Below are positions 14,856 through 52,598 of a stretch of 64,000 bases of DNA, piece after piece. Within the stretch, counting starts at the first letter, position 1; each line of letters opens with the position of its first letter. A program made the position numbers and the translations under genes. The stretch covers positions 1 through 64,000 of the forward strand of contig NZ_JAGQCH010000001.1 in the NCBI RefSeq assembly GCF_024346055.1, in the 5' to 3' direction. Source of the stretch: Cyanobium sp. Cruz CV13-4-11. GTDB lineage: Bacteria > Cyanobacteriota > Cyanobacteriia > PCC-6307 > Cyanobiaceae. The notes beneath the pieces were generated by a model, which had not been told where the DNA came from, did not search any database, and was given only the letters and a program-made list of their open reading frames with translations.

Positions 14856-16049
14856 TCAGGGCTCCCAGCGCTGCGAGCCCAGGATGGTGAGGTCCACGTA
14901 GCTGCTGCCGTTGTGGTCCTTGGGGCTCAGATGCACCCGGAAGCCGCCGAGGTCCACGTTTCGCATGGTTTCCAGGGCCGTCACAAAGCGCTGGCGGGTG
15001 GGGGCGGGCCCGGCCCGGCGTAGGCCCTCCACGGTCAACTTGGCGGCCAGAAACCCCTCCAGACTGGAGAAGCCGAAGTGCGGTCTGGCCTGCCCGCGCC
15101 GCATCAGGCGCTGGTATTCGCGCACCACCGGCACCCGCTCATTCCAGGGGAAGGGCACCACCTGGGTGATGCCGATGCCGCTGGCTTCCTGGCCCAGCAG
15201 GGAAGCCCGCAGGGCACTGGTGCCCACAAAGGACACGTTCATCAGCTGGGCCCTGCTGCCGTGCCTGTGCATCTCGCGGCTGAAGGCGGCTGAGCTGGGG
15301 TAGGCGGCCACGATCACCACGGCGTTGGCGTTGGCGCGCATCACCGTGCTGACTACCCCCCCTGTCTGGGTGGAGTTGCGCTCCACCCTGCCCGTGGCCA
15401 CCGGCTTGAGGCCGTGGCGCTTGAGGGCCTTGAGGGCGCCGTTGAGCCCATCCTGTCCGAAGGCGTCGTTCTGGATCACCACCGCAATGCGATGGCGACC
15501 GCTACGAACCAGATCATCGACCATCCGGTCGATTTCCATGTGGTAGCTGGCCCGCAGGTTGAACACCATCGGCCGATGGGGTTGGCGCAGCAGCTGGGCG
15601 CCGGTCAGGGGGGCGATCAGCGGGATCTGTTGACTCTCCACCAGGGGCAGCACCGCCTTGACGGTGGGGGTTCCCACATAGCCGAACAGGGCGAACACCC
15701 TGTCGCGCTCAATCAGCTGTCGGGTGTTGCGCAGGGTGAGGGGAGGCTCGTAGCGGTCATCGAGGCTCAGCAGCTTCAACCGCCGTCCATGGATGCCGCC
15801 CTGGCGATTCACCTCGGCGAAGTAGGCCAGGGCCCCTTCCCGGTACTCCTGCCCGAGCATGGCGGAGGGGCCGCTGAAGGCTGCCGACTGCCCCAGCACC
15901 AGCTCCGCTGGCGGTGATGTGGGGCCGGGGGCGCCTAGGGCGGCCAGGCCCGGGACCGCCAGGGCCAGGCTGAGCCCGAGGACGCCGAGTCCCGCCACCG
16001 GCCCACGCCCGCTCAGCTTTAACTTCAGTGAACACCAGCGGGTTCGCAT
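14856..16049 (-). CDS. Type I periplasmic binding protein (branched-chain amino-acid type)
   Basis: About 397 aa from ATG 16049, with a basic start and a hydrophobic export segment (VAGLGVLGLSLALAVPGLAA). The mature part follows the LivJ/amide-sensor fold: LVLGQSAAFSGPSAMLGQEY, YFAEVNRQGGIHGRRLKLL, DDRYEPPLTLRNTRQLIE, FALFGYVGTPTVKAVLP, then FGQDGLNGALKALKRHG. It binds a small ligand in the periplasm. No ABC permease or ATPase is linked. Instead its start codon overlaps that of the divergent channel-like gene at 16048, which suggests ligand sensing rather than uptake. An upstream frame to 16250 looks non-coding. Confidence 0.85.
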   Translation of the reverse strand: MRTRWCSLKLKLSGRGPVAGLGVLGLSLALAVPGLAALGAPGPTSPPAELVLGQSAAFSGPSAMLGQEYREGALAYFAEVNRQGGIHGRRLKLLSLDDRYEPPLTLRNTRQLIERDRVFALFGYVGTPTVKAVLPLVESQQIPLIAPLTGAQLLRQPHRPMVFNLRASYHMEIDRMVDDLVRSGRHRIAVVIQNDAFGQDGLNGALKALKRHGLKPVATGRVERNSTQTGGVVSTVMRANANAVVIVAAYPSSAAFSREMHRHGSRAQLMNVSFVGTSALRASLLGQEASGIGITQVVPFPWNERVPVVREYQRLMRRGQARPHFGFSSLEGFLAAKLTVEGLRRAGPAPTRQRFVTALETMRNVDLGGFRVHLSPKDHNGSSYVDLTILGSQRWEP

Positions 16050-17283
16050 GGGGCAGCGCAGGCAAAGACCGTGGAACGTTCTGGCGATGGTGGCCGTCGT
16101 TCTGGCGGCCATCCTGGCCATTCTCGGGATCAGCCGCATCGACGTGATTCCGGTGCAGAGCCGCGATGCCCTGCGCCTGTCCTCGGCGTCTCGCGCCCTC
16201 ACCACCCTGCCCCTTGGCGAGAAACCGCCCATCGGCGTCTGGAGCGCCATGCGGGGCGATCAACTCAGCGCCGGGGAGGACCGGGTCGATCGCACCGAAC
16301 TGGAGCGGGCGCTTTACAAGGTGCAGGTGGGGGTGTACTCCACCAGCAATTATGAGCTGGACCTCACGGTGCCAAGCTATTCCAGTAGTGGCTATGTGTG
16401 GCTGCGCTGGGAGGAGCCCATGCAACGCTATGTGGAGAGTCGCGGCGGTGATATTTCCAGTCTGTTTATTGTCTTGAACACCCTGCTTTCCGACAAGGAT
16501 TCCAGCCTAAATCCGGTGGGAGAGGCCCCGATAAAGCTTGCGGATGGTAGTTTTTACCAGCTCTTCACCTACGTCGGGCGTTATTACGTTGACAGAGCCA
16601 GCTTCCGTCATTATCCATTCATGAGTATCAGTCTGCCGCTGGTGATTGAGGCCAACGACGTGGATGGTCAACTTGGCTACCGCAACCTGCGCCTGATTCC
16701 AGAGATTCGCAACAGTGGAATGGGTCTCTATGCCCATATCATCGGTTGGCTCAACATGGGCTGGTCGATCGCCGAATACCGTCACCATTACGCCACCAAC
16801 TTCGGGCTTGGAGTTGAGGAAAACGAATACAGCCAGATTCTGTTTGAGATCTCCTACGGCACCTCCTCATGGGCGTCTTTCTGGAGGCTTCTGTTACCCC
16901 TTGTGGTGCTGATGACGATGGTGTTGCTGGTGTTCAAGGTGCGTCCAGATGAACAGGATGCCCGTGCCAGCATTCCAGTCACGGTGTTGCTGACCCTGGT
17001 CTTTCTGCAGCAGACCTACCGCGACCAACTGCCGGATCTGCCCTTCCTCACGTTCCTGGATCAGGTGTATGTGGTGGCCTACGTTGTTACCCTGGCTGCC
17101 TTTGTGCTCGTGCTTTGGATTGGCCGTCGCTATGGAGTTATGGAAACGATGGAGGATCCGGTTGCCAGGGAGGCTCTCCTGCGGCATCTGCATCGCCTGG
17201 ATGACACCTGGCCGCTGGTGGTGGTGCTGTTGGGTGGTGCGGCCATCACCTTCTGCTGGATCACGATTCCCCAGGCGCTCTGA
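16048..17283 (+). CDS. Pentameric ligand-gated ion channel (Cys-loop-like) membrane protein
   Basis: ATG 16048 (411 aa); ATG 16087 is possible and would relieve the overlap with the divergent start. After an N-terminal membrane anchor (VLAMVAVVLAAILAILGI) comes a beta-rich extracellular domain with VGVYSTSNYELDLTVPSYSS, YVWLRWEE and SFRHYPFMSISLPLVIEA, the position of the F-xx-YPFD-Q motif. Four membrane helices follow: LLLPLVVLMTMVLLVFKV, then ASIPVTVLLTLVFLQQTYRD, LPDLPFLTFLDQVYVVAYVV and WPLVVVLLGGAAITFCWI. Order and spacing match M1-M4 of prokaryotic channels such as GLIC. Bacterial members fused or linked to periplasmic binding proteins are known, matching the neighbour. Confidence 0.7.
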   Translation: MGQRRQRPWNVLAMVAVVLAAILAILGISRIDVIPVQSRDALRLSSASRALTTLPLGEKPPIGVWSAMRGDQLSAGEDRVDRTELERALYKVQVGVYSTSNYELDLTVPSYSSSGYVWLRWEEPMQRYVESRGGDISSLFIVLNTLLSDKDSSLNPVGEAPIKLADGSFYQLFTYVGRYYVDRASFRHYPFMSISLPLVIEANDVDGQLGYRNLRLIPEIRNSGMGLYAHIIGWLNMGWSIAEYRHHYATNFGLGVEENEYSQILFEISYGTSSWASFWRLLLPLVVLMTMVLLVFKVRPDEQDARASIPVTVLLTLVFLQQTYRDQLPDLPFLTFLDQVYVVAYVVTLAAFVLVLWIGRRYGVMETMEDPVAREALLRHLHRLDDTWPLVVVLLGGAAITFCWITIPQAL

Positions 17284-18937: not shown

Positions 18938-19846
18938 TTAATCCTGCTGCCCATTGTTCTTCCCAAGGGCCATTTCCTGGCTCCGTCCACGCCGCCGCCA
19001 GCTCAGGAAGGCCCCAGCGGGCCGCCATTCAGCCTGTCCGCCAACCTTGACCAGTCGATCGAGCCGCAGCTGATGGTCGGCGCTGGTGAGCCGCCCATAG
19101 GCCAGGCCCACAACCGCGAACACCCCCAGCGCCGTCGCCGACGCGATCATGAACAGGATCACGATCTGGTAGCGAACCGCCGCCGCTGGCGCCGCCCCCT
19201 GGAGGATCTGCCCGGTCATCATCCCCGGCAGGCTCACCAGGCCCATCACCATCATCGAGTTGATCGTCGGGATCATGGCGACGCGGATGGCGTCACGCAC
19301 CACCGCCCGGCACGCCTCCCAGCGGGTCGCCCCCAGGGCCAGATCCGTTTCGACCTGGTCGCGCCCGCTGCGCAGACCTTCCATGAAGCGATCGAGTCCC
19401 AGGGAGAGGCCGTTGAGCGTGTTGCCCAGCACCATCCCCAGCAGCGGGATCAGATACTGGGGGTTGTACCAGGGCTGGGGCTGGATCAGTCCTGTCACCG
19501 CCAGCCCCGTGACCAACGCCGAGGAGGCCATCACCGACAGCAGGCTGTTCAGGTAGATGCCGGCAAAGCGCTGCCGGGTGCGTTGCACGGCGGACACCCC
19601 GGCGATCAGCGCCATCGCCGCCCCCACCAGCACGATCAGGGGCGCATCGTCCTGGCGGAACAGCCACTCGAGCACGAAGCCCACCAGCAGCAGCTGCACC
19701 ACCATGCGCACGGAGGCCAGCAGCAGGCTGCGGCTGAGACCCAGGCGCAGCGCCGCCGACAGTCCCACGTTCACCAGGATCAGCAGGCCGGACAGCGCCA
19801 GGCGGCCATCACTGATCGTCAGGGCGCCGGAACTTGAGGGGGTCAT
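18938..19846 (-). CDS. fetB: FetB/UPF0014-type ABC transporter permease
   Basis: 302 aa with about seven membrane segments, including ALSGLLILVNVGLSAALRLG, MVVQLLLVGFVLEWLF, APLIVLVGAAMALIAGVSAV and YLIPLLGMVLGNTLNGLSLG. The C-terminal half has the permease coupling region around ETDLALGATRWEACRAVVRD. The UPF0014 family partners FetA and is reported to export iron and support oxidative-stress resistance. Its start overlaps the ATPase stop by 4 bp. The C-terminus has an extra basic tail of about 40 residues. Confidence 0.9.
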   Translation of the reverse strand: MTPSSSGALTISDGRLALSGLLILVNVGLSAALRLGLSRSLLLASVRMVVQLLLVGFVLEWLFRQDDAPLIVLVGAAMALIAGVSAVQRTRQRFAGIYLNSLLSVMASSALVTGLAVTGLIQPQPWYNPQYLIPLLGMVLGNTLNGLSLGLDRFMEGLRSGRDQVETDLALGATRWEACRAVVRDAIRVAMIPTINSMMVMGLVSLPGMMTGQILQGAAPAAAVRYQIVILFMIASATALGVFAVVGLAYGRLTSADHQLRLDRLVKVGGQAEWRPAGAFLSWRRRGRSQEMALGKNNGQQD

Positions 19847-20514
19847 CGCGGCAGCTCCAGGGTGCGGGTGGCGAAGCGTTCGATCTGCTCGCTGTCATGG
19901 CTGATGAGCACGGCGGCACGCGGGCCAGCGGCAAGCCAGGCGATCAGCAGGGCCTCGACGGCGGCGGTGGTGGCGCCGTCGAGGGAGGCGGTGGGTTCAT
20001 CCAGCAGCAGCACGGTCGGATCGGACTGCAGGGTCCGCAGCAGCGCCAGCAGCTGCAGCTCGCCGCCGGACAGCCGTTCGGCGTCGTAGCTCAGGAATGA
20101 GTGGTCGCGCCCCAGGGCCGCCAGCCAGCCGGTGATGCGCTCGTAATTCCAGCCACCTCGCCCCCGCCGCTCCTGAAACCGCCAGGGCGCGCGCAGGTTC
20201 GTCTCCACGGTTCCCCCACCGGCCACCGGCCGCTGGGCCAGGTACGCCACCATGGCGCGCCAACGCGGCAGACCCCAGGCCGCCGGAGGGCGCCCCAGCA
20301 GGCTGAAGCGTCCGGCCTGCGGCGGATCGAGCAGGGCCAGGGTCCGCAGCAAGAGGGTTTTCCCCGCCCCGGAGGGCGCCACCAGCCCCAGGCGTTCGCC
20401 GCCGGCCAGTTCGAGATCCAGCCGGCTCCAGAGCCGCCGATCCCCCAACCGCCGCTCGAGACCGGCGGCGCTCAGCAGCAGGGGGCGGTCCAGGGCGGTG
20501 GGAGGGTCGGGCAC
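19843..20514 (-). CDS. fetA: FetA-type ABC transporter ATPase
   Basis: 223 aa. Walker A is in LVAPSGAGKTLLLR, the signature is LSGGELQLLALLRTL, Walker B with the catalytic Glu is VLLLDEPTASLDG, and the switch His is in AVLISHDSEQIER. It drives the FetB permease encoded with a 4-bp overlap downstream. The first gene of the pair, divergent from the AAA ATPase gene at 20601; the 86-bp gap contains a set of dyads that may control both directions. Confidence 0.9.
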   Translation of the reverse strand: MPDPPTALDRPLLLSAAGLERRLGDRRLWSRLDLELAGGERLGLVAPSGAGKTLLLRTLALLDPPQAGRFSLLGRPPAAWGLPRWRAMVAYLAQRPVAGGGTVETNLRAPWRFQERRGRGGWNYERITGWLAALGRDHSFLSYDAERLSGGELQLLALLRTLQSDPTVLLLDEPTASLDGATTAAVEALLIAWLAAGPRAAVLISHDSEQIERFATRTLELPR

Positions 20515-40691: not shown

Positions 40692-41609
40692 TCAGCCCCG
40701 TTGCAGCAGGGGCAGCACCAGGGTCACCGCGGAATAGACCACCGCCGGCACGAACAGGTAGCTGTCGATCCGATCAAGAATGCCGCCGTGGCCGGGGATC
40801 GCATCGCCCGAGTCCTTGAGGCCTGCATCCCGCTTCATCATCGATTCGGTCAGATCGCCCACCAGGGCGAACAGGGAGACCACCGCCCCCAGCACCGCCC
40901 CGATCAGCCAGCCCCAGCGCCAGCCCAGCAGCAGCCCGCCCACGGCCCCCACCAGCAGGGCGCAGAGCACCCCGCCCAGGGCCCCCTCCACTGTCTTGCC
41001 CGGGGAGATCGGCGAGAGGGCGTGGCGACCCAGGCGGCGGCCGATCACGTAGGAGCCGATGTCGGTGGCGACGATCATCAGGCAGGCCAGCAGGGTGAGG
41101 GCCATGCCGGGGCTCCAGGGCCAGCCCAGCCCGTCGAGCGCCGGGGCCAGGGCGGGGTCGGTGAGATCCCGCAGCTTGATCCAGTGGCTGGGCAGGAAAC
41201 CCAGGTAAAAGAGGCCGAACACCGAGGCGGCGATGTCGGCGATGGTGCCGGTGACCGGCTGGAGCAGCAGCCAGCCGCAGATCACGGCCCCGGACGCGGG
41301 CAACACGGCCGCCGCCACGTCTCCGGCCACGTCGCCCGCCATGCCGCCCCCCGACCAGAGGCTGCCGGCGGCCACCTGGGTGGAGACCAGCAGCAGCTGC
41401 ACCGCCACCAGGGTGGTCTTGGTGGCGGGACGGATGCCCTTGAACTGGGCCATGCGGAAGAACTCCAGCAGACCCAGGTGCACGATCACCCCCACGGCGA
41501 CGGTGAACCACCAGCCGCCCAGGCCCACCACCACCAGCCCGAAGCCGCCGGCCAGCCAGCCGCTCAGCAGGCGGGACAGGGAGGTGGCGGGGCGGGGGGC
41601 GGCAGGCAA
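40692..41609 (-). CDS. cdsA: Phosphatidate cytidylyltransferase
   Basis: 305 aa, about eight membrane helices. The C-terminal signature is present: SLFALVGDLTESMMKRDAGL followed by KDSGDAIPGHGGILDRIDS. It makes CDP-diacylglycerol for phospholipid synthesis. The upstream cbiT gene is 10 bp away on the same strand, so they share a transcript. Confidence 0.94.
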   Translation of the reverse strand: MPAAPRPATSLSRLLSGWLAGGFGLVVVGLGGWWFTVAVGVIVHLGLLEFFRMAQFKGIRPATKTTLVAVQLLLVSTQVAAGSLWSGGGMAGDVAGDVAAAVLPASGAVICGWLLLQPVTGTIADIAASVFGLFYLGFLPSHWIKLRDLTDPALAPALDGLGWPWSPGMALTLLACLMIVATDIGSYVIGRRLGRHALSPISPGKTVEGALGGVLCALLVGAVGGLLLGWRWGWLIGAVLGAVVSLFALVGDLTESMMKRDAGLKDSGDAIPGHGGILDRIDSYLFVPAVVYSAVTLVLPLLQRG

Positions 41610-41619
41610 GGGCTCGGAC

Positions 41620-42228
41620 TCAACGCTCGGCGGCGATCACGAACAGCGGTTCGGCGGCGGCCAGCTTGGCCTGGCTGCCGCGACGCTGCATGCGGTGCAC
41701 GGTGGCCTGCACCACCTGCACATCGTGGGCCCCCAGCTGGGCCAGGGTGTCGGTGGCCTTCACCAGACCCTCCAGGTTCACGGTGCTGATCACCAGCCGA
41801 CCGGAGGGCTGCAGGGCGCCCCAGACGGCCCGCAGCACGTCCTCCAGGGGCCGGCCCACCTCCAGCAGCACCCGGTCGGGGTTGGGGGGCAGCAGAGCCA
41901 GGCCCTCCGGGGCCTCGCCGGCGTGGATGTGCAGGTTGTGGATGCCGAAGCGCTGCCGGTTGCGTTCCAGCAGGTCGATCGCCTCCGGATCCCGCTCCAG
42001 GGTGTGCACGGCGCCGGCAGGCATCAGCCGGGCGATTTCCAGGGCCAGGGCGCCGGTGCCGCCACCCACGTCCCAGACCAGCGAATCGGCGCGGGGGCGC
42101 AGGTGGGCCAGCAGCATCACGCGCAGCTCCAGTGGCGTGGGGCTGAAGCCCGGGGCGTCCTCGAAGGCGCTGTCCGGCAGCCCGGGGGTGACGAAATCCC
42201 AGTGGAAGGGGTTCGGCAACGGGCTCAC
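41620..42228 (-). CDS. cbiT: Precorrin-6Y C5,15-methyltransferase subunit CbiT
   Basis: 202 aa. SAM-binding LVWDVGGGTGALALEIARLM, with FEDAPGFSPTPLELRVMLLA before it and GAVHTLERDPEAIDLLERN after it, the CbiT pattern. It methylates and decarboxylates the corrin ring precursor in cobalamin synthesis. The start overlaps the decarboxylase stop by 4 bp. Confidence 0.9.
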   Translation of the reverse strand: MSPLPNPFHWDFVTPGLPDSAFEDAPGFSPTPLELRVMLLAHLRPRADSLVWDVGGGTGALALEIARLMPAGAVHTLERDPEAIDLLERNRQRFGIHNLHIHAGEAPEGLALLPPNPDRVLLEVGRPLEDVLRAVWGALQPSGRLVISTVNLEGLVKATDTLAQLGAHDVQVVQATVHRMQRRGSQAKLAAAEPLFVIAAER

Positions 42229-43586
42229 GAACCGACCACAACGCTCACCGTATCAGCGATCTGGCCGGGCCAGAGACGCCGCTGCTCCAGCAGCCAGTCG
42301 GCGCGGGCCGCATCGATCCGCTCGCCGGGCACCAGCAGCGGAATCCCCGGCGGGTAGGGGCAGATCAGTGCCGCCGCCACCCGGCCGGCGGCCTCCTCCA
42401 GGGGTACGGCCTCCGCCGGGCTCCGCCAGGCCACGCCGATCGGCAGTTCCGGCGCCGCCAGCAGCGGCAGGGGGGGCGGCGTGAAGGGGGGCAGGGGCGG
42501 CCCGCCGAGGGCCCGGCGCAGCTCCTGCAGCTGGCGCGGCAGACGCCGCACAACCCCCCGGGGCGGGTTCAGTCCCAGGCAGAAGGTGAGGGCGCCGGGT
42601 TCCGGCAGCTCCGCGATCACCCCCCGCTCCAGCAGCCAGGTGTCGGCCTCCAGGCCGTTGATCCCCAGGGGGGCGGTGGCCAGCACCAGGCGCAGGGGAT
42701 CGCCGTTGGCCACCAGCGGCAGGCCCAGGCCTTCCAGGCGCTGGCGCAGTCGTCCGGCCCGGGCCACGGCCCGCTGGCGCTGACGCCTGCCGGCGGCGCT
42801 GGCGCCATGCTCAAGGGCCGCGGCCGTCGAGGCCAGCAGCAGGGCGCTGGGGCTGGAGGTCTGCAGCCACAGCAGGGTCCGCGCGATGGCGGCCGGTGGC
42901 ACCCGTTCGCCCTGGGCCAGCAGGGCGGCGCTCTGGGCCAGGCCGGTGCCGCTCTTCTGCACGGAGAGCACCACCAGATCGGCGCCGGCGGCCAGGGCTT
43001 CGCCGCCGCCGTGGGCCTGGTCCACCAGCACCGGCAGGCTGGCCCGGTGGGCCAGGGCCACCAGGGCCGGCAGATCGGCCGCCAGCCCCTGGTAGGTGGG
43101 ATCCACCAGCACCAGGGCCGCCGGGGGGCTGCCGCCATCCGCGGCGGCCGCCGCCAGCACCCGCTCCAGCCGCCGGGGCTCCGGCGGTTGCCACAGGCCG
43201 GTGACGGGATCGCTTGGCAGGTCGTACAGGAGCGGCTCGATGCCGCCCAGCACGCAGCCGTGCAGCAGGCAGCGATGCAGGTTGCGGGGCAGCAGCACCC
43301 TCGACCCCGGTGGGCAGAGGGCGAGCAGGGCCGCCTGCAGCAGCCCCGAGGCCCCGTTCACCCCGAACCAGCAGCGCTCCGCCCCCAGCAGGGCCGCCGC
43401 CCGTTGCTGGGCCTCGGCCACGGTTCCCTCCGGTTCGAGGGGCCCGCCGAAGCCGGGCAGTTCCGGCAGATCCCAGCTCCCCGGAGGCTGACGCAGCAGT
43501 CGGCGCAGGGCCGGGGCCAGGGCCCGGCCCCGGCCATGGGCCGGTAAGTGCAGGGCCAGCGGCCCTGGCCGCCAGAACGGGCCCAT
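42225..43586 (-). CDS. PLP-dependent Orn/Lys/Arg decarboxylase family protein
   Basis: 453 aa. RCWFGVNGASGLLQAALLAL, VLLPRNLHRCLLHGCVLGGI, AALVLVDPTYQGLAADLPAL, LVDQAHGGGEAL and VVLSVQKSGTGLAQSAALLA; the Lys in QKSG is the PLP anchor. This short form (no wing domain) is widespread in cyanobacteria and may decarboxylate arginine or lysine; some relatives act in polyamine synthesis. It overlaps cbiT by 4 bp and its start codon abuts the divergent AarF gene. Confidence 0.87.
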   Translation of the reverse strand: MGPFWRPGPLALHLPAHGRGRALAPALRRLLRQPPGSWDLPELPGFGGPLEPEGTVAEAQQRAAALLGAERCWFGVNGASGLLQAALLALCPPGSRVLLPRNLHRCLLHGCVLGGIEPLLYDLPSDPVTGLWQPPEPRRLERVLAAAAADGGSPPAALVLVDPTYQGLAADLPALVALAHRASLPVLVDQAHGGGEALAAGADLVVLSVQKSGTGLAQSAALLAQGERVPPAAIARTLLWLQTSSPSALLLASTAAALEHGASAAGRRQRQRAVARAGRLRQRLEGLGLPLVANGDPLRLVLATAPLGINGLEADTWLLERGVIAELPEPGALTFCLGLNPPRGVVRRLPRQLQELRRALGGPPLPPFTPPPLPLLAAPELPIGVAWRSPAEAVPLEEAAGRVAAALICPYPPGIPLLVPGERIDAARADWLLEQRRLWPGQIADTVSVVVGS

Positions 43587-45300
43587 GGAGCACGGAACGC
43601 AGTTCCTAGAGTCTGGCCATCACTGCGGCAGGACCCTGTCAGAGGTCGTCACCCCCACGCCCACCTACGACCCCAACGGCGATCTGCGCTGGCTGCTGCT
43701 GCGGCCCTGGGTTCTGGTGGCTCGGCTGACCGTGGTGCTCTGGCGGCTGGCCGGGCTGACCCTGCGGCTGGCGGTTCAGTCGAGCAGCACCGATGCCCGG
43801 GTGCAGCAACGGCTGGCCCGCGCCATCCTCGAGACCCTCAACGACCTGGGGCCCTGCTTCATCAAGGTGGGACAGGCCCTCTCCACCCGCCCCGACCTGG
43901 TGCGGCGCGACTGGCTGGAGGAACTGGCCCGTCTGCAGGACGATCTGCCCCCCTTCTCCCACGCGGTCGCCCTGGCGCTGATCGAGGAGGAGCTGGGGGC
44001 CCCCGCCCACCAGCTGTACGAGGAGTTCCCCGATTACCCGATGGCGGCGGCCAGCCTGGGGCAGGTCTACCGGGCCCGCCTGGCGGACGGCCACTGGGTG
44101 GCCGTGAAGGTGCAGCGGCCCGACCTGCCCTTCATCCTGCGCCGCGACCTGGTCATCATCCGCTCGCTGGCGGTGCTGGGGGCCCCGTTCCTGCCCCTGA
44201 ATCTGGGCTTCGGCCTCGGGGCGATCATCGATGAGTTCGGCTCCACCCTGTTTGAGGAGATCGACTACCGGCGCGAGGCCGACAACGCCGAACGCTTCGC
44301 CACCCTCTTTCTGGACCACCCCGAGGTGACCGTTCCGGCGGTGGTGCGGCCCCTGAGCAGCCGCCGGGTGCTGACCACCAGCTGGATCAACGGCACCAAG
44401 CTGCAGAGCCGCCGCGAACTGGAGGCCCACCATCTGGATCCGGCGGCCCTGATCCGCACCGGGGTGATCGCCGGCCTGCAGCAGTTGCTCGAGTTCGGCT
44501 ACTTCCACGCCGATCCCCATCCGGGCAACCTGTTCGCCCTGCAGGGCAAGACCAACGGCCTGGGCCATGTGGCCTATGTCGACTTCGGCATGATGGATTC
44601 GCTCAGCGACTCCGACCGCCTCACGCTCACCGGGGCGGTGGTGCATCTGATCAACCGGGATTTCGTCGCCCTCGCCAGGGATTTTGTGGCCCTGGGCTTC
44701 CTCAACCCCAGCACCCCCCTGGGGCCGATCGTGCCGGCCCTGGAAGAGGTGCTCGGTGGTGCCCTGGGGGAGAACGTGGGCAGCTTCAACTTCAAGGCGA
44801 TCACCGATCGCTTCTCGGAGCTGATGTACGACTACCCGTTCCGGGTGCCGGCCCGCTTCGCCCTGATCATCCGGGCGGTGGTGAGCCAGGAGGGGCTGGC
44901 GATGCGGCTCGACCCGGACTTCCGCATCATCCGGGTGGCCTATCCCTACGTGGCCAGGCGCCTGCTGGCCGGCGACACCGCCGAGATGCGCGAGAAACTG
45001 CTGGAGGTGATCTTCGACAAGGACGGCCGCCTGCGGGTCGAGCGACTGGAAAACCTGCTGGCGGTGGTGGAAAACGGCACCACCTCCACCGATCTCCTGC
45101 CCGTGGCGCGCGACGGCCTGCGGCTGCTGCTGGGCAAGGAGGGCACCAGCCTGCGCCAGCGGCTGCTGCTGAGCCTGGTGAGCCACGACCGGCTGCACAC
45201 CGACGATCTCAAGGCGCTGCTGGGTCTCATGGGCCGCACCTTCTCGGCCCGAAAGCTGGCCTCTGGCCTGCTGGCCCGCCTGAATCCGCTCGCCGCCTGA
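43585..45300 (+). CDS. AarF/ABC1/UbiB-type atypical kinase
   Basis: 571 aa as drawn from ATG 43585; the first 25 residues look non-coding, and the conserved part begins near TYDPNGDLRWLLLRPW. The KxGQ motif is FIKVGQALSTRPDLV, the Ala-rich loop MAAASLGQVYRARLADG leads to VAVKVQRPDL, then FHADPHPGNLFAL and YVDFGMMDSLS. C-terminal hydrophobic helices are expected in the family. Members affect quinone or tocopherol biology in plastids and cyanobacteria. Start position uncertain because it overlaps the divergent start. Confidence 0.9.
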   Translation: MEHGTQFLESGHHCGRTLSEVVTPTPTYDPNGDLRWLLLRPWVLVARLTVVLWRLAGLTLRLAVQSSSTDARVQQRLARAILETLNDLGPCFIKVGQALSTRPDLVRRDWLEELARLQDDLPPFSHAVALALIEEELGAPAHQLYEEFPDYPMAAASLGQVYRARLADGHWVAVKVQRPDLPFILRRDLVIIRSLAVLGAPFLPLNLGFGLGAIIDEFGSTLFEEIDYRREADNAERFATLFLDHPEVTVPAVVRPLSSRRVLTTSWINGTKLQSRRELEAHHLDPAALIRTGVIAGLQQLLEFGYFHADPHPGNLFALQGKTNGLGHVAYVDFGMMDSLSDSDRLTLTGAVVHLINRDFVALARDFVALGFLNPSTPLGPIVPALEEVLGGALGENVGSFNFKAITDRFSELMYDYPFRVPARFALIIRAVVSQEGLAMRLDPDFRIIRVAYPYVARRLLAGDTAEMREKLLEVIFDKDGRLRVERLENLLAVVENGTTSTDLLPVARDGLRLLLGKEGTSLRQRLLLSLVSHDRLHTDDLKALLGLMGRTFSARKLASGLLARLNPLAA

Positions 45301-45367
45301 GGCCCCACGGGTGCGCTGAGCGCCGGGTCAGGCGAAGCTGGATCGCGACCCTGCCTTCTGCGGCCCC

Positions 45368-48253
45368 TTGACCGAGGCTCTGCTGCTCATCGCCCTCCTG
45401 CTGCTCCTGGCCGGGTGGATTCTGCAGACCCTCTCGATGGAGCGGCGCCTCAGGCGCCTTGAGCGGCACAGCGCCTCCCTCAGCCAGCGTTTCTTCGCCC
45501 TCTCGCTCTGGAGCGAGGCTCTTGAGAAGCGACTGGCCGGTGAACCCTGGCCCGGCCAGTCGGGAATCGCCCCGGCGGAGGAACCCGCGGCGTTGGCCCC
45601 AGCCCCAGCCCGGGCCCTGGACGCCGCTGTGGAGCCTGCGCCCGCGCCGGTGCCCTTGGCACCGCTGCGGCCGGCCAGGGGCGCGACCCGACCCTGGAAG
45701 CGGATCGAGCGCCTGCTGGTGGAGAACTGGAGCGGCCTGCTCGGCGTGCTCGTGGTGGTGGCCGGAGTCACCTTCATCACGATCCATGCGGGGTTGCGGC
45801 TGGAGGCCAGGGAACGGTTCCTGGTCACCCTGCTGGTGGGAGGGCTCCTGGTATTGCCGTCGCTGCTGTGGGGCCGGCGGGAGCGCTGGCGCGATCTCAC
45901 CGATGGCCTGCGCAGCGGTGGCGGCGCCCTGGTCCTGTTCGCCTGCGCCGCCGCCGGCGGGTTGCCCCAGCTCGGTCTGCAGTGGGTGGAGGTTCCAGCC
46001 CAGGCCCTGGCCCTGCTGGCCGGGGGCGTTGCCGTCAACCTCGGCCTGGCCGCCATCGCCCGCACCGCCACGATCGCCTCCCTGCACGTGGCCGTGAGCC
46101 TGGTGCCCCTGGCGATCGCCCCCCAGGGAGGCCCGGCCCTGGCGATCGCCACCGCCATCGCCCTGGTGGGCTCCGAGCTGCCCCTGCGGCATCGCTGGCA
46201 GCGGCACCGGTTGGTGGTGAGCTGGGTCTATGGCCTGTTTCAGGTCGGCTGGTTTCTGGCCAATGGCCCGGCGCTGGCCGTCTCCAGCGCCCTGTCAACC
46301 GGCGCCGCCCTGGCGGCGGTGCTGGTGTTCGGCCTGGGATTGCTGCGGCTGCACCGGCCGGGGGCCGCGCCACCGCGGCTGCAGGCCCTGCCCGTGGCCC
46401 TGCTGCTGAGCCTCTGGGGCGGCCTCGGCCTCGCCCTGCTGCTCTATCCCCGTGAGGCGGCCGCCAGGGCCGTGGCCCTGGCGCTCAGTGCCGCCGTGGC
46501 CCTGTGGCTGGGGCGGAACGCCCGGCGGCGCGGCCCGCGCTGGCTGGCCCTGGGCGATGGGCTGGTGGCGCAGACCCTGGTGCTGGCCGCCCTGCTGAGC
46601 CTGGCGCCCCTGATCGCGGATGGGCCGTTGCTGGCCGGTGTGGTGTTGCTGGAATGCCTGCTGTTCCTCGGCCTGGCGGTGCGGGAGGACGCCGAGCCCC
46701 TGCGCCGCATCGGCTGGTGGCTGAGCGTGGCGGCGAGCCTGCTGCTGGCGATCACGGGCCTGGTGGCGGCGCTGCTGAGCCGCGATCCGGTGGCCCAGCT
46801 CCAGGCCGGAGCCGTGCTCACCGGCGGGGCCGCCCTGACGGCCGGCATGCAGGTGCTGCTGCAGCGCCGTGGCGTGCCGCTGCCCCTGCCGCCCCTGCTG
46901 GGCTGGCTGGCCGGCGGCCTGCTCGCCGTGGGGACGGGGCTGGTGGTGCCGGAGGACTGGCGCTCCCCCCTGAGCCTGGTGGTGATGGGGGCCTTCCTGG
47001 TGGCGGCCAGGCGCTGGCGCCCCCCGGGCCTGCTGCTGGGCGTCAGCGTTGCCATCGCGGCGGCCCATGGCTTCGGCTGGCTGGCGCTGCTGGCCCAGGC
47101 CCCCTGGCCGGCGATGGCCCTGCTCGCTCGCCTGCTGCCCCTGGCGCTGCTGGCCCTGCTGTTGATGCGCTCGGGCGGCGGCAGCCGCCAGCAGTGCCTC
47201 GGCCTTGGTCTGCTGGGCATCGATGCGGGGCTGGGGGCCCTGTGGTGGCTGGAGCCGGTCTCGCCCCTGCTGCCGGGCGTGGCCTGGCTGCTGCTGGCCG
47301 CCGGCACCCTGGCGGCCACCCACCGGCTGCGGGGGGCGGCCGTGCGGGCCGGCCTGGTGCTGTCCCTGGTGTATCTGGCCGGTTTCGGCGTCACCTTTCT
47401 GTTGGTGATCGGACCGAGCCAGGAGCTGGTCACGCTCGGGGCCCTGCAACTGCGGGGCCGCTGGCTGGTCGAGCTGCTGGCGATCGCCGTGTGTCTGCAC
47501 GGCTGGTTCTTCCGGGCGGGAGCCGACCTGGCGCGGCTGCAGATCTGGCAACGGGTGCAGCCCTGCTTCCTCGAGGGTGCCCTGCTGGGCGTGGGGCTGA
47601 CGCTGCTTGGGGAGATCAGTGCCCCCTGGCGACCCGTCGCCTGGTCGCTGCTGGCCCTGGTGCTGGTCTGCCCGGCGCTGGTGCGGCTGTTCGCCATCCG
47701 CCTGCAGGTCTACGGCGTGGTGGCCTACTGGCTGTCGGTGCTGGCGCTGGTGCACACCCTTGGTGGTGGCCTGTCCCCCTTCCCCCCGGTCAGTGGCACC
47801 GCCCAGGCCGCCGGTGTGGTGGCGATCGCCCTGCAGACGGCCTTCGTCGTGGCCTCCCACCGCTGGCTCGACCTCGAACGGCTGGCCCAGCCGGGTGGAT
47901 GGCCGGTTCTGGTCTGGATCGGAGCGCCTGTGGCCCAGCGCCGCAACCTTTGGCTGTACTACCCCCTGTTCGTGGCCGTGGCCCTCGTGCTGGCCAGCGG
48001 CTACGACCGCGCCCTGCTGACGCTCCTGTGGACCGGCGAAGCCTTCGCCGTCTACGTGCTCGGGGTGGTGCTGCGGGAGCCCCAGTTCCGGCTGGTGGCC
48101 CTGCTGGGCCTTGGGGCCTGCCTGCTGCGGTTGCTGGCCATCGACATGGCCCAGGCGGACCTGGGTCTGCGGGGTCTGGTGTTCATCGGCGTGGGCCTGC
48201 TGCTGCTGGCCCTGAACGCCATCGTTCACCGCCTGGGGAGCCGATTCAGCTGA
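45368..48253 (+). CDS. Large DUF2339-like membrane protein
   Basis: 961 aa from TTG 45368. A short N-terminal helix and coiled-coil (RRLRRLERHSASLSQRFFAL), an Ala/Pro-rich linker, then WSGLLGVLVVVAGVTFITIH and more than 20 hydrophobic helices. This is the DUF2339 architecture (many-helix membrane protein). Function unknown. No neighbour suggests a role. Confidence 0.78.
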   Translation: MTEALLLIALLLLLAGWILQTLSMERRLRRLERHSASLSQRFFALSLWSEALEKRLAGEPWPGQSGIAPAEEPAALAPAPARALDAAVEPAPAPVPLAPLRPARGATRPWKRIERLLVENWSGLLGVLVVVAGVTFITIHAGLRLEARERFLVTLLVGGLLVLPSLLWGRRERWRDLTDGLRSGGGALVLFACAAAGGLPQLGLQWVEVPAQALALLAGGVAVNLGLAAIARTATIASLHVAVSLVPLAIAPQGGPALAIATAIALVGSELPLRHRWQRHRLVVSWVYGLFQVGWFLANGPALAVSSALSTGAALAAVLVFGLGLLRLHRPGAAPPRLQALPVALLLSLWGGLGLALLLYPREAAARAVALALSAAVALWLGRNARRRGPRWLALGDGLVAQTLVLAALLSLAPLIADGPLLAGVVLLECLLFLGLAVREDAEPLRRIGWWLSVAASLLLAITGLVAALLSRDPVAQLQAGAVLTGGAALTAGMQVLLQRRGVPLPLPPLLGWLAGGLLAVGTGLVVPEDWRSPLSLVVMGAFLVAARRWRPPGLLLGVSVAIAAAHGFGWLALLAQAPWPAMALLARLLPLALLALLLMRSGGGSRQQCLGLGLLGIDAGLGALWWLEPVSPLLPGVAWLLLAAGTLAATHRLRGAAVRAGLVLSLVYLAGFGVTFLLVIGPSQELVTLGALQLRGRWLVELLAIAVCLHGWFFRAGADLARLQIWQRVQPCFLEGALLGVGLTLLGEISAPWRPVAWSLLALVLVCPALVRLFAIRLQVYGVVAYWLSVLALVHTLGGGLSPFPPVSGTAQAAGVVAIALQTAFVVASHRWLDLERLAQPGGWPVLVWIGAPVAQRRNLWLYYPLFVAVALVLASGYDRALLTLLWTGEAFAVYVLGVVLREPQFRLVALLGLGACLLRLLAIDMAQADLGLRGLVFIGVGLLLLALNAIVHRLGSRFS

Positions 48254-48305
48254 CGGGGCGGCACCGGCGCCTAGGGTCGGGCGCGATCGCCTCCTGATTC
48301 CTTCC

Positions 48306-48794
48306 GTGACCCAGCTGCTGGCCGCCCTCTCGACTGCTCCGGTGACCCTGCAGCAGGCCGGGCTGGACCAGGCCAGCGGTGATTTCGGCGATCTGGATGC
48401 CCTGGAGATCCTGCTGGAGTACGCCCCGCTCACCTACCCGCCCTACATGTTGGCCGGCATCGGCCTCGCCATGGCCGTGCTCTGCGGGCTCACCTTCGCC
48501 AAGATGATCCAGAACCGGCTGGAGGGCTGGAAGCAGGACAGGCTGGCCCTGCTGCCGATCTCCAACCTGGAGACGACCCTGCCCTACGCAGGTCTGGTGA
48601 TCGGTGTGACGCTGTTCATCGGCGCCAGCCTGCAGGTGTTCGGCTTTGCCGCCGGAGCGGCCCTGCTGGTGGCCTTCGTGCTGTCGCTGCTCACCGGTGG
48701 TGCCCTGTGGGTGCAGCTGGAGCGGCTGATGGCCCAGGTGCAGGAGGGCACCTTCCGGGCGGTCGACTTCGATAACTTCGACCAGTTCTTCTGA
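48306..48794 (+). CDS. Conserved membrane protein, 162 aa
   Basis: GTG start at 48306. Helices around YMLAGIGLAMAVLCGLTF, GLVIGVTLFIGASLQVFG and AGAALLVAFVLSLLTGGALW, with an acidic N-terminus and FDNFDQFF at the end. Likely a cyanobacterial protein of unknown function in the cytoplasmic or thylakoid membrane. Confidence 0.65.
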   Translation: MTQLLAALSTAPVTLQQAGLDQASGDFGDLDALEILLEYAPLTYPPYMLAGIGLAMAVLCGLTFAKMIQNRLEGWKQDRLALLPISNLETTLPYAGLVIGVTLFIGASLQVFGFAAGAALLVAFVLSLLTGGALWVQLERLMAQVQEGTFRAVDFDNFDQFF

Positions 48795-48867
48795 TCCCCC
48801 TGTGCGGGTTGCCGTCACCCGCCCACCGGCAAGACCTCGTAACGTAATGAAATATCGCCCCAGGGTC

Positions 48868-49047
48868 ATGGAAGCCTCTCTCTCCATCAACCGCCAGTTT
48901 TCGATCGCCGTTCACTCCCGTGCCATCGACAGCTGCAATGACATTGAGGAACTGCGCACGGTCGCCAAGACCCTCCTGTCGGCCTGGCAGCACCAGGCCG
49001 AATTCAGCGAGCATTACGGCGCCCAGCTGCTCGGCATCCGCAAGTAA
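48868..49047 (+). CDS. Small conserved cyanobacterial protein, 59 aa
   Basis: MEASLSINRQFSIAVHSRAI, then CNDIEELRTVAKTLLSAWQH and AEFSEHYGAQLLGIRK. Composition and helix pattern fit a short picocyanobacterial family without known function. Start at ATG 48868; ATG 48847 adds seven residues. Confidence 0.65.
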   Translation: MEASLSINRQFSIAVHSRAIDSCNDIEELRTVAKTLLSAWQHQAEFSEHYGAQLLGIRK

Positions 49048-49057
49048 GCCGAGAAGC

Positions 49058-49318
49058 TCAGGGAGCTCCGGTTCCGTTGTTCCCCTCTTCCTCGCGCCCA
49101 GCATCGGAGCCGCCGGCGCCCCTTCGGCGCCACAGCTTCAGGCCGACGCCTCCCCACAGCAGGCTCCAGACAAGGAAGGTGATCAGGGTTCCCACCTGGC
49201 CCCCTTCCAGGTCGTAGACCCTGACGCCGATGAGACCGGCATCGATCAGCGAGCCGCCCACCCCCCAGCCGAGCACCCAGAGCGCCACCAGGGCGATGGC
49301 CGTTGCTTGCTCCTTCAT
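49058..49318 (-). CDS. Small membrane protein, 86 aa
   Basis: Two hydrophobic helices (AIALVALWVLGWGVGGSLID, then GTLITFLVWSLLWGGVGLKL) and a Gly/Glu-rich tail. Unknown family. Convergent with the 59-aa gene, 10 bp apart. Confidence 0.6.
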   Translation of the reverse strand: MKEQATAIALVALWVLGWGVGGSLIDAGLIGVRVYDLEGGQVGTLITFLVWSLLWGGVGLKLWRRRGAGGSDAGREEEGNNGTGAP

Positions 49319-49456
49319 CGTTCGCCTTGCCCAAGGGCCCCAGCCTGCCAGTCCAACCAGGCTGTACGCTTCTACTGATTCAAAGATTTCTCTTCGGCGA
49401 GTGACAACGTCCGGATAGGGCTATCGACGAATCGGTTCATAATTGTTTCTCTGTTC

Positions 49457-49747
49457 ATGACGATTTACGTTGGAAACCTCTCCTTCGATGCGGAGGTGGA
49501 GGATCTCAACCATCTGTTTGCGCAGTATGGAGCGCTGCGTAACTGCAGCCTGCCCCTCGACCGGGAAACCGGCCGCAAGCGCGGCTTCGCCTTCGTTGAG
49601 ATGGCCAATGAGGCCGACGAAACCAAGGCCATCGACGACCTTCAGGATGTCGAGTGGATGGGTCGGATGATCCGGGTCAACAAGGCCCAGCCCCGCACCG
49701 GTGGTGGTGGCGGCGGTGGCGCCGGTGGCGGCCGTCCCCGTTACTGA
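49457..49747 (+). CDS. rbp: RRM-type RNA-binding protein
   Basis: 96 aa. One RRM with RNP2 MTIYVGNLSF and RNP1 KRGFAFVEM, then a Gly-rich tail ending RPRY. Cyanobacterial Rbp proteins of this layout bind U-rich RNA; some localise thylakoid mRNAs or respond to cold. A strong terminator follows 26 bp after the stop, and the upstream 80 bp is AT-rich, so it is a single-gene unit. Confidence 0.93.
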   Translation: MTIYVGNLSFDAEVEDLNHLFAQYGALRNCSLPLDRETGRKRGFAFVEMANEADETKAIDDLQDVEWMGRMIRVNKAQPRTGGGGGGGAGGGRPRY

Positions 49748-49773
49748 TGGCAGGCCTCTTCTGCAGGTGCAAG

Positions 49774-49797
49774 GCCCCCGGAAACGGGGGCTTTTTT
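49774..49797 (+). terminator. Rho-independent terminator of rbp
   Basis: GCCCCCG (49774-49780), loop GAAA, CGGGGGC (49785-49791), then six T. Confidence 0.9.
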
Positions 49798-49813
49798 GCT
49801 GGGCCGTGCTGGC

Positions 49814-50803
49814 TCAGGCCACCAGGTAGGCCTCGAGGGAGCGGGAGTGGTGGCGGATGCCTTCCAGGGCACGTCGCTCCAGGTTGCGGGTCTTGTCCCG
49901 GCTCATGCCCAGGCTGCGGGCGATGCCGGTGAGGCTCATCGGTTCTTCGCCGTCGATGCCGTAGCGCATCTTCAGCACGCGGCCCTGCAGGTCAGGCAGC
50001 TGCTCGAGCAGGGCCCGCAGGTCCCCCTTGAGGCACTCGCCATCCACCAGCTCGGCCGGCAGCAGGTCGTCGCCGGAGAGCAGATCCAGCAGCTCGGTGT
50101 CCTCGCCATCGCCCACCTTTGTTTCGAGGCTCACCGGCTGGCGGGCGCGGCAGAGCAGATCCTTCACTTCCTCTTCGGGCAGTTCCACCGCCACCGCCAG
50201 CTCGCTCAGGGTGGGGGTGCGGCCCAGCTCCTGGCTCAGCTCCCGCTGGCCCTTCTTGAGCTTGTTGAGCGTTTCGGTGATGTGGATCGGCAGCCGGATC
50301 GTGCGGCTCTTCTCGGCGATCGCCCGGGTGATGCCCTGGCGGATCCACCAGTAGGCGTAGGTGGAGAACTTGTAACCGCGGGTGGGGTCGAACTTCTCGA
50401 CGCCCCGCACCAGGCCGATCGTGCCCTCCTGGATCAGGTCGAGCAGCTCCATGTTCCGCTTGGTGTACTTCTTGGCCACGCTCACCACCAGGCGCAGGTT
50501 GGCCGCCACCATCCGCTCCTTGGCGCGGCGGCCGGCGTGGAGACGCTTGCGCAGCATCGCCGGGGTGAGGCCCGCCTCGGCGGCGAGCAGCTCGGGGCTG
50601 GGCTCCTCACCACCGGAGCGGAGGGTGAGTTCCTCGCGCATCTCCTCGAGGGCCATCAGCTCCTGCACCTGCCGGCCCAGGGTGATCTCCTGCTCATGGC
50701 TCAGCAGCGGCACCCGGCCGATGTCGCGCAGGTAGGAGCGCAACGAATCGCCGGTGGCCACGAGCAGGGACGCGGACGAAGCGGTGACGGTGATCGAAGG
50801 CAT
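49814..50803 (-). CDS. RpoD-family sigma factor (group 2 type)
   Basis: 329 aa. Region 1.2 is [20 protein letters not shown]. Region 2 has [40 protein letters not shown] and [20 protein letters not shown]. Region 3 is [16 protein letters not shown]. Region 4 is [20 protein letters not shown] followed by [12 protein letters not shown]. No region 1.1 or long insert, as in non-essential group 2 sigmas of cyanobacteria that respond to light, nutrient or circadian signals. A 10-bp perfect inverted repeat lies 9 bp before the start codon. Confidence 0.93.
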
Positions 50804-50811
50804 CGCCCCTT

Positions 50812-50837
50812 GTTACGAAACTAGTTGGTTTCGTAAC
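50812..50837. promoter_or_regulatory. Perfect 10-bp inverted repeat upstream of the sigma-factor gene
   Basis: GTTACGAAAC (50812-50821), TAGTTG, GTTTCGTAAC (50828-50837). It ends nine bases before the ATG at 50803 on the minus strand, with AAGGGG between as a ribosome-binding site. It could be an operator or a 5' leader hairpin. Confidence 0.7.
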
Positions 50838-50892
50838 TCTACCATCACTTTGCGGACTCGCTCCGACCTGGAGCGGTCCGCAGAATGGGGTC

Positions 50893-51612
50893 ATGGCTGC
50901 CGACCGTCTGCAGAAACTCGTTGCTGCCGCAGGGCTCTGCTCCCGCCGGGAGGCGGAGACGTGGCTGCGCGAGGGCCGGGTGCGGGTCAACGGAGACCTG
51001 GCCCAGCTGGGCGACCGCGCCGATCCCGCCTGCGACCGCATCAGTGTCGACGGCCAGCCCCTGGAGCTGCCCGGCACCACCGTGACGCTGCTGCTCAACA
51101 AGCCCCCCGGGGTGCTGAGCACCTGCCATGACACCCACGGCCGCCCCACCGTTCTGGACCTGCTGCCGCCGCAGCGGCGCCGCGGTCTGCATCCGGTGGG
51201 CCGGCTGGATGCCGACAGCCGGGGCGCCCTGCTGCTCAGCAACGACGGCGACCTCACCCTGCGCCTCACCCATCCCCGCTACGGCCATCGCAAGACGTAC
51301 CAGGTGTGGGTCGAGGGATCGCCGCAGCCGGCCACCCTGGAGCACTGGCGCGCCGGCGTGCCCCTCGATGGCCTGCCCAGCCAGCCGGTGGAGCTGCACC
51401 GGCTGCGCCACCACCGCGGCGCCACCCTGCTGGAGCTGGTGCTGCGGGAGGGCCGCCACCGCCAGATCCGGCGCACGGCGGAGATCCTCGGCCACCCGGT
51501 GCTGGATCTGCGGCGGGTCGCCGTCGGTCCGGTGCAGCTGGGCGATCTGCCGGAAGGATCCTGGCGTGAGGTCGAACCGGGAGAATGGGGCCACCTGGCC
51601 GTCGCTCCCTGA
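50893..51612 (+). CDS. RsuA/RluB-type pseudouridine synthase
   Basis: 239 aa. N-terminal S4 RNA-binding domain (RLQKLVAAAGLCSRREAETW, then LREGRVRVNGDLAQLGDRAD). Catalytic domain with LHPVGRLDADSRGALLLSND, where the Asp of GRLD is the catalytic residue, then HPRYGHRKTYQVWVEG and LREGRHRQIRR. It would modify ribosomal RNA. Whether the target is 16S (RsuA) or 23S (RluB) cannot be decided here. Overlaps the next gene by 28 bp if that gene starts at 51585. Confidence 0.9.
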   Translation: MAADRLQKLVAAAGLCSRREAETWLREGRVRVNGDLAQLGDRADPACDRISVDGQPLELPGTTVTLLLNKPPGVLSTCHDTHGRPTVLDLLPPQRRRGLHPVGRLDADSRGALLLSNDGDLTLRLTHPRYGHRKTYQVWVEGSPQPATLEHWRAGVPLDGLPSQPVELHRLRHHRGATLLELVLREGRHRQIRRTAEILGHPVLDLRRVAVGPVQLGDLPEGSWREVEPGEWGHLAVAP

Positions 51613-52598
51613 GCCCCCCTTCCTTGCCCACTCCGGCCAAGCCCTTGCTCCAGCGGCTGCGCGAGCGCCTGCCGGGCCGGCGCCGGCCGCTGCGCCCGGT
51701 CGTCGAGGAGCGGCCCCAGGATGCCCTGCTGCTCGCCGGCCAGCAGCTGCGCCAGGCCCGGGAGAGCCGTGGCCTCGGCCTGCGCCAGCTGGCGCTCGAC
51801 ACCCGCATCAGCACCGCCGTGCTGGAGGCCCTGGAGCGGGGCTGGCGGGACCGGCTGCCGGAAGCCGCTTACCTGCGCACCATGCTTCCCCTGCTGGAGC
51901 ACCATCTGGAGCTGCCCGGCGGCTGTCTGGACGGGGTGCTGCCTCCGGAGCAGGACCGGCGCCAAGGGCGACGGCGGGACTCGGTACTGCTGCGCTTCAC
52001 CCCCGGCTCGATCGATGTCTTCACCACCTGGCAGGGCACGGTGCTCTACGCGGTGCTGTGCGCCGGGCTCCTCTATGGCCTCAACCTGCAGCAGCGCCAG
52101 CTGGCCGCCCAGGGCCTGAATGCCCTGCGGCCGATCCCGCCCCTGAGTGCCGCCCAGACCGACCAGGCGAATCTGGAGGATGCTGACCGGGCGATCCTGG
52201 GCGCCTACCCCGACCTGCGCCCCCTGGGCAAGGCCGCCGCCGGCCAGGGGCTGCAGCGGCTGCGGCGCGAAACCAGCCAGAATCGCCCTGATCTGGCCCT
52301 CGGCCTGCTGCGCCTGGAGCTGGCCAAGCCCACCCGGGTGTCCCTGCGCAGCGACCGGGGCGTGGAAACCAAGCTGCCGGCGGTGCAGGGCAGCCTGAGC
52401 CTGCCGGTGCTGCCCCCCTTCAGCCTGCGGTTGGAGCCGGCCCCGGCGCCCGGTGCGGTGCGCTGGAATGGCCGGCCCCTGGCGCCGGCAGCGGCGGCGG
52501 CCGCCGATCCCGGCGCTGTGGTGGCCACGCCCCAGGACCAGGCCCAGTTCCTCTACCCGCCCCCGGCTGCGGCTGCCTCCCCGCGCCCCCGCCCGTAG
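51585..52598 (+). CDS. RodZ-like HTH membrane protein
   Basis: 337 aa from ATG 51585; a TTG near 51624 would remove the overlap. N-terminal HTH of the RodZ type (LLLAGQQLRQARESRGLGLR, then QLALDTRISTAVLEALERGW), a single membrane helix (TVLYAVLCAGLLYGLNL) and a C-terminal beta-rich part (LAKPTRVSLRSDRGVE) with a Pro/Ala tail. This is the RodZ order. RodZ helps MreB in cell shape. The 3' end overlaps the convergent malQ by 46 bp. Confidence 0.75.
   Translation: MGPPGRRSLSPPSLPTPAKPLLQRLRERLPGRRRPLRPVVEERPQDALLLAGQQLRQARESRGLGLRQLALDTRISTAVLEALERGWRDRLPEAAYLRTMLPLLEHHLELPGGCLDGVLPPEQDRRQGRRRDSVLLRFTPGSIDVFTTWQGTVLYAVLCAGLLYGLNLQQRQLAAQGLNALRPIPPLSAAQTDQANLEDADRAILGAYPDLRPLGKAAAGQGLQRLRRETSQNRPDLALGLLRLELAKPTRVSLRSDRGVETKLPAVQGSLSLPVLPPFSLRLEPAPAPGAVRWNGRPLAPAAAAAADPGAVVATPQDQAQFLYPPPAAAASPRPRP

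Follow-up and report, generated by a model that had tools for sequence, protein, structure and literature searches.

Conserved linkage of a pentameric ligand-gated ion channel gene to a periplasmic binding protein gene in picocyanobacteria: a candidate two-part receptor

The natural role and the ligands of most bacterial pentameric ligand-gated ion channels (pLGICs) are obscure, even though GLIC and ELIC serve widely as models for nerve receptors. In a 64,000-nucleotide stretch of Cyanobium DNA, here called the window, a pLGIC-like gene lies head-to-head with a gene for a periplasmic binding protein (PBP), which raises the question of whether the two products form one receptor. An earlier reading made from the letters alone (the sequence-only reading) had proposed an amino-acid-gated, two-part channel in a picocyanobacterium. 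Its description of the locus was borne out: the host is a picocyanobacterium, and a check of the sequence found both genes at the positions first noted, with start codons that overlap at a CATG. The features are listed below with the evidence for each.

14856–16049, minus strand: type-I PBP gene (397 aa, P0002) with a signal-peptide-like N-terminal stretch and no lipobox (Pfam PF13458; PDB 3lop, 4kv7; aligned relatives)
14859–14879, minus strand: C-terminal PBP tail GSQRWEP, candidate docking tail (C-termini compared)
16047–16050, no strand: CATG common to both start codons (also in L002–L006, not in more distant relatives)
16048–17283, plus strand: pLGIC subunit gene (411 aa, P0001; fold search with an AlphaFold model, weak sequence matches to families and a PDB entry)
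16078–16134, plus strand: N-terminal hydrophobic helix, residues 11–29, probable membrane anchor, presumably uncleaved (model helix; kept in relatives)
16159–16200, plus strand: linker motif SRDALRLSSASRAL, residues 38–51, candidate PBP docking site (conservation pattern)
16303–16866, plus strand: extracellular beta-sandwich domain, residues 86–273, with the Pro-loop motif YPF (P190) (alignment, model, structural alignment)
16867–16932, plus strand: M1, residues 274–295, with the conserved M1 proline P284 (alignment, model)
16954–17028, plus strand: M2 pore helix, residues 303–327 (ELIC alignment, relatives' alignment, model)
17053–17145, plus strand: M3, residues 336–366 (model)
17158–17262, plus strand: M4, residues 371–405 (model)

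Sequence searches with the channel gave distant matches to Pfam Neur_chan_memb (E 1.6e-4, 22.4 bits, under the cut-off of 28.1), to NCBIfam LIC (E 3.6e-7; LIC and LGIC_1 both have E below 1e-6 yet fall far under their own cut-offs) and to ELIC in the PDB (E 1.3e-6). An AlphaFold model built from 27 relatives (pLDDT 71, pTM 0.61) retrieved pLGICs in all top rows of a Foldseek search (ELIC, GLIC, sTeLIC), and its structural alignment with GLIC covered 282 residues in model positions 86–408, spanning both domains, at Z 19.5. The model runs from the hydrophobic helix (11–29) through a linker (31–85) into a beta-sandwich with four membrane helices after it, the feature of the pLGIC superfamily. The earlier claim of a pLGIC fold, made from a beta-rich outer domain and four C-terminal helices, agrees with the model, by which 16048–17283 encodes a divergent pLGIC subunit. 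P190, within HYPF at the tip of the beta6–beta7 loop, is invariant across the 27 relatives; the proline of this loop is the most conserved position of the superfamily (PMC4795631). Since no clear cleavage site is evident in the N-terminal helix, it probably serves as a fifth helix that anchors the protein.

Alignment of the M2 stretch DARASIPVTVLLTLVFLQQTYRDQLP with ELIC places Ser at 2′, Thr at 6′, Leu at 9′, Arg at 0′ and an acid at −2′, the last being Asp or Glu in all aligned relatives. GLIC too has an acid at −2′. On this analogy cation selectivity is the better guess, and the pore is probably cation-selective. An invariant proline at 4′, unusual in a pLGIC pore helix, marks together with two glutamines at 15′–16′ the whole picocyanobacterial channel family. 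Because the genome holds one channel of this kind, the subunit likely assembles as a homopentamer. Two diverged channel genes lie near one PBP gene in some other loci (L027:5351–8819, where the PBP sits between the two; G168:C36:46592–54091; L008:6806–15506), an arrangement that could mean mixed pentamers.

The divergent partner is a type-I periplasmic binding protein. It matches Peripla_BP_6 (PF13458) at E 7.7e-57 (194 bits, cut-off 31.7) and is closest to 3lop and 4kv7, with a Foldseek TM of 0.73 to 3lop. In a low-identity alignment with LivJ, whose sequence was confirmed against 1z15, the whole PBP family has T in place of S79, G in place of T102 and S in place of E226, with L or R replacing A100 and A, S or T replacing Y202. 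Since the LivJ residues that hold the alpha-amino acid, among them E226, T102 and A100, are replaced, the ground for calling the system amino-acid-gated is gone; at such low identity this is no proof. The family keeps the whole two-lobed fold, with invariant residues T127, T149–G150 and S273 in the LivJ-equivalent pocket region.

The neighbour genes examined included no amino-acid permease gene. The transporter genes at 18938–20514 (−), a UPF0014 membrane protein and an ABC ATPase with a 4-bp overlap, are FetAB-like, of another kind than an amino-acid permease and unrelated to the gene pair. The genome's other two PF13458 PBPs adjoin PF02653 (LIV-type) permeases on contigs C4 and C23, and the window PBP does not. 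The earlier description of a binding protein without its own transporter beside it was accurate in this respect; the window PBP could conceivably serve a LivHM-type permease in trans.

Conservation of the head-to-head pair had been named beforehand as a check on a joint role. Some pLGIC relative is carried by 87 of 299 genomes of the order. Among the 40 channels in these genomes that are at least 57% identical, which span about 11 genera, 37 have the PBP divergently adjacent at gaps of −14 to 217 bp; one of the three exceptions lies at a contig end, and the others are in G046 and G121. The pairing of orthologous channels with the PBP is far beyond chance. Pairwise distances in the channel and PBP families also correlate (r 0.76 for 43 pairs, permutation maximum 0.36). 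The CATG overlap recurs in five close relatives (L002–L006), more distant ones having other start codons or intergenic gaps of up to about 220 bp, and is a detail of one subclade. Five diverged channels (39–43%) keep a diverged PBP (41–44%) in convergent, tail-to-tail orientation, so the linkage is independent of shared start codons. In a separate marine channel clade (about 29% identity) a UrtA-like PBP lies directly downstream in 8/8 genomes. The pLGIC–PBP link occurs in divergent, convergent and co-directional arrangements and with two kinds of PBP. Loci of the UrtA-like pair are L064:5267–7656 (−), with a 4-bp overlap, L071, L076 and L089; G043:C11:137619–139800 holds another pLGIC gene in convergent orientation with a UrtA-like PBP gene.

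Pairing as a trait of all picocyanobacterial pLGICs was rejected, as the 25 commonest of 45 Pfam families included no PBP when 63 neighbours of paralogous channels from outside the paired sets were examined. In the window and the paired loci, PBP and channel are separate genes and not a fusion with the PBP at the N-terminus. Open frames of 700–900 aa in the window's genus (L078–L082) resembled fusions but were dismissed, their N-terminal parts having no Pfam match and looking like out-of-frame sequence. Carriage of the pair by plasmids or phages was likewise rejected, with no match in plasmids or viral contigs.

The channel is kept without the PBP in G121, G051, G042 and G046. As such lineages survive, the PBP is not strictly needed and the channel has some use alone. 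In L028:2139–2883 and L093:5996–6145 the pair or the PBP survives as a broken remnant, evidence that decay sometimes removes the unit. It has also moved. Comparison of window positions 41164–54950 with L002 and L116 shows that Cyanobium relatives carry two such gene pairs flanking an ABC1-kinase gene; the homologue of that gene at 43.6–45.3 kb of the window lacks a pair, and the window's pair is found instead at 14.8–17.3 kb. A second whole pair lies nearby at two loci, L002 and L005. The cyanobacterial gene pair also turns up, at about 70% identity, on contig L007 (CALPNT020000043.1), deposited as a Bifidobacterium breve MAG; mislabelling or contamination is the probable reason.

Given the folds, the conserved pairing and the linker signal described below, the best reading at present is that the two genes encode a two-part periplasmic receptor in which the loaded PBP docks on and gates the pLGIC, to which we assign a probability of roughly 0.55. 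The two-part sensor-channel of the sequence-only reading is retained in this form, and its amino-acid ligand is set aside as unsupported. The PBP would be exported to the periplasm, bind a small molecule as its candidate ligand and close around it. Once loaded, it would dock on the anchored, putatively homopentameric channel, probably at the conserved linker between the N-terminal membrane anchor and the beta-sandwich, with a likely contact through the W-x-P tail at its C-terminus. This would then shift the open probability of the channel, whose pore is probably cation-selective.

The linker that follows the channel's N-terminal anchor is conserved as SRDxLRLSSxSRAL. Its motif R-[DE]-x-[LV]-R-L-[STA]-x3-R-x-L (39–51) is intact in 40/40 divergently paired channels, a count that holds partly by construction because the positions were picked post hoc from the alignment, which does not apply to the decay of the motif in lineages that lost the PBP. 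Such channels are nested within the paired clade at two places (L021; the clade of L090, L025 and L088), and the loci there hold no recognisable PBP remnant. They keep 4–5 of the 8 motif positions, two convergent channels keep 6/8, and L093, with a PBP remnant (E 5e-8), is intermediate, also at 6/8. In the PBP-less channels the residuals range from −0.10 to −0.30 for residue windows 26–60 and 51–85 and stay within about 0.1 of zero for the others; these channels match paired ones in how well the extracellular and transmembrane domains are conserved, but not in the linker, a dependence on the PBP that is drawn from two clear independent losses only. Constraint at the DNA level was rejected as the cause, since silent sites in the linker are no more conserved than elsewhere. 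As the convergent class, too, keeps most of the motif though the PBP promoter cannot lie there, the constraint acts on the protein. The decay of the linker with loss of the PBP suggests that the PBP docks at this site, and the result favours docking.

Relatives of the PBP beside other partners bear on the same question. Nine in-order relatives, seven intact and two broken (two short fragments were left aside), do not adjoin a pLGIC, and all nine have a bestrophin-like PF14023 gene immediately downstream (L098–L106, e.g. L098:5234–8240 (−) and L100:5530–8500 (−)). Several of these loci then continue with a PstS-like PBP. The PBP and the bestrophin-like gene may form a second PBP–channel system; a structure search returned no credible solved-structure match for the bestrophin-like partner, so its identity as a channel comes from the Pfam name only. 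Outside the order, four PBP relatives (36–42%) adjoin an MCP, a PilJ/HAMP protein or Cache-HAMP-PAS-SpoIIE proteins; loci of this kind in other cyanobacteria are L109:3839–8027 (−), L110:1766–3776 (+), L111:6684–10006 (+) and L112:6905–10256 (+). The neighbour pattern of the family fits a signalling PBP rather than a transport PBP.

The C-terminus of the PBP varies with the partner. All channel-linked PBPs that could be read through to the C-terminus close with W-x-P, among them the convergent ones on long branches and that of L092. Intact bestrophin-linked PBPs end in IH or IN and the MCP/HAMP-linked ones otherwise, W-x-P being absent from both. Since most channel-linked PBPs form one clade, shared ancestry accounts for part of this pattern; the partner-specific tail nonetheless suggests docking.

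Hand-over of ligand would explain the pairing without stable docking: the PBP would concentrate the ligand or pass it to the classical inter-subunit site, which is the general idea published by Tasneem et al. in 2004 (PMC549065). The gene pairing and the loss of permease context are expected here as well, and the extracellular loops of the channel are aromatic-rich and strongly conserved (W234, W239, Y244). What hand-over leaves unexplained is that loss of the PBP is followed by decay of the linker and not of the extracellular domain, and that PBP C-termini are partner-specific; we consider it rather unlikely. Alternatively, the genes might share regulation only, with a common promoter region serving one response, the PBP feeding an ABC transporter elsewhere and the channel gated otherwise, for example by pH. 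Divergent genes with close or overlapping starts, the two LIV-type permease clusters elsewhere in the genome and the pH gating of GLIC and sTeLIC, channels of the same fold (structure entry titles), agree with this view. Still, each permease cluster already has its own PBP, the pair persists when convergent, the protein-level constraint on the linker depends on the PBP, and PBP relatives pair with signalling receptors, which makes shared regulation alone quite unlikely. Very unlikely is a PBP that has lost ligand sensing and acts as a structural or assembly partner of the channel, which would fit the missing LivJ ligand-binding residues and, like any stable complex, the linker and tail signals, but not the retention of the two-lobed fold and its invariant pocket-region residues or the pairing of relatives with several classical signalling receptors.

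The docking of a loaded PBP on the channel is accordingly the reading we prefer, with several points against it: the PBP-less channel lineages, a linker signal drawn from two clear losses only, the post hoc motif, the ancestry of the tail and the replaced LivJ residues. A fuller version, in which a soluble, ligand-loaded PBP gates the pLGIC through linker and W-x-P tail while its relatives are re-used for bestrophin-like, chemoreceptor and phosphatase-type receptors, is put forward tentatively, at somewhat less than even odds. If true, the PBP family would supply an interchangeable sensor subunit to membrane effectors that are unrelated to each other, two kinds of channel possibly among them. 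A pLGIC gene beside a gene for a soluble sensor protein is kept by many picocyanobacteria, freshwater and marine, and the pair offers a natural setting that is widespread, together with a named partner and two candidate contact motifs that are short and can be mutated. Should the PBP gate the channel, relatives of nicotinic and GABA receptors can be driven by a diffusible sensor protein, and assays on the soluble protein could reveal the ligand. With bestrophin-like genes as the alternative partner, the same PBP family can be tested a second time and independently.

A general linkage between PBPs and pLGICs has been known since 2004: Tasneem et al. (PMC549065) described PBP-I domains fused to bacterial pLGICs (Bradyrhizobium, Magnetospirillum) and stand-alone PBP-II neighbours, proposed their cooperation and noted simple pLGIC architectures in cyanobacteria; their Figure 3 may already show a Synechococcus neighbourhood. 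Jaiteh et al. (PMC4795631) urged follow-up of such architectures. What is added here is an unfused pair that is conserved, the signals in linker and tail, and the swap of partner; a literature search, thin on subscription journals and run without figures, yielded no paper on the genes in head-to-head order, on either signal or on the bestrophin-like alternative.

Compared with known systems, the channel resembles GLIC, ELIC and sTeLIC in its beta-sandwich and four-helix fold, its Pro-loop and its M1 proline, and differs in an identity of 14–19%, an extra N-terminal anchor helix and linker, the adjoining PBP gene and the M2 4′ proline. The PBP shares the fold of LivJ/HAAT-type binding proteins (Foldseek identity 25–35% to 3lop, 4kv7 and 4m88), whereas its alpha-amino-acid-binding residues are replaced and there is no adjacent ABC permease. 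In LuxP–LuxQ and in maltose-binding protein with Tar, a soluble PBP, once loaded, relays its signal via a receptor in the membrane; here, the effector would be a pLGIC and not a kinase or chemoreceptor. Like the systems of Tasneem et al., the window pair has a periplasmic binding domain genome-linked to a pLGIC, but it is unfused, of type-I PBP, head-to-head, kept across many picocyanobacteria and marked by linker and tail signals. In DeCLIC and further pLGICs that carry an additional N-terminal domain (PMC9897478), a periplasmic module acts on the channel from within the same chain, whereas the window PBP would act as a separate soluble protein.
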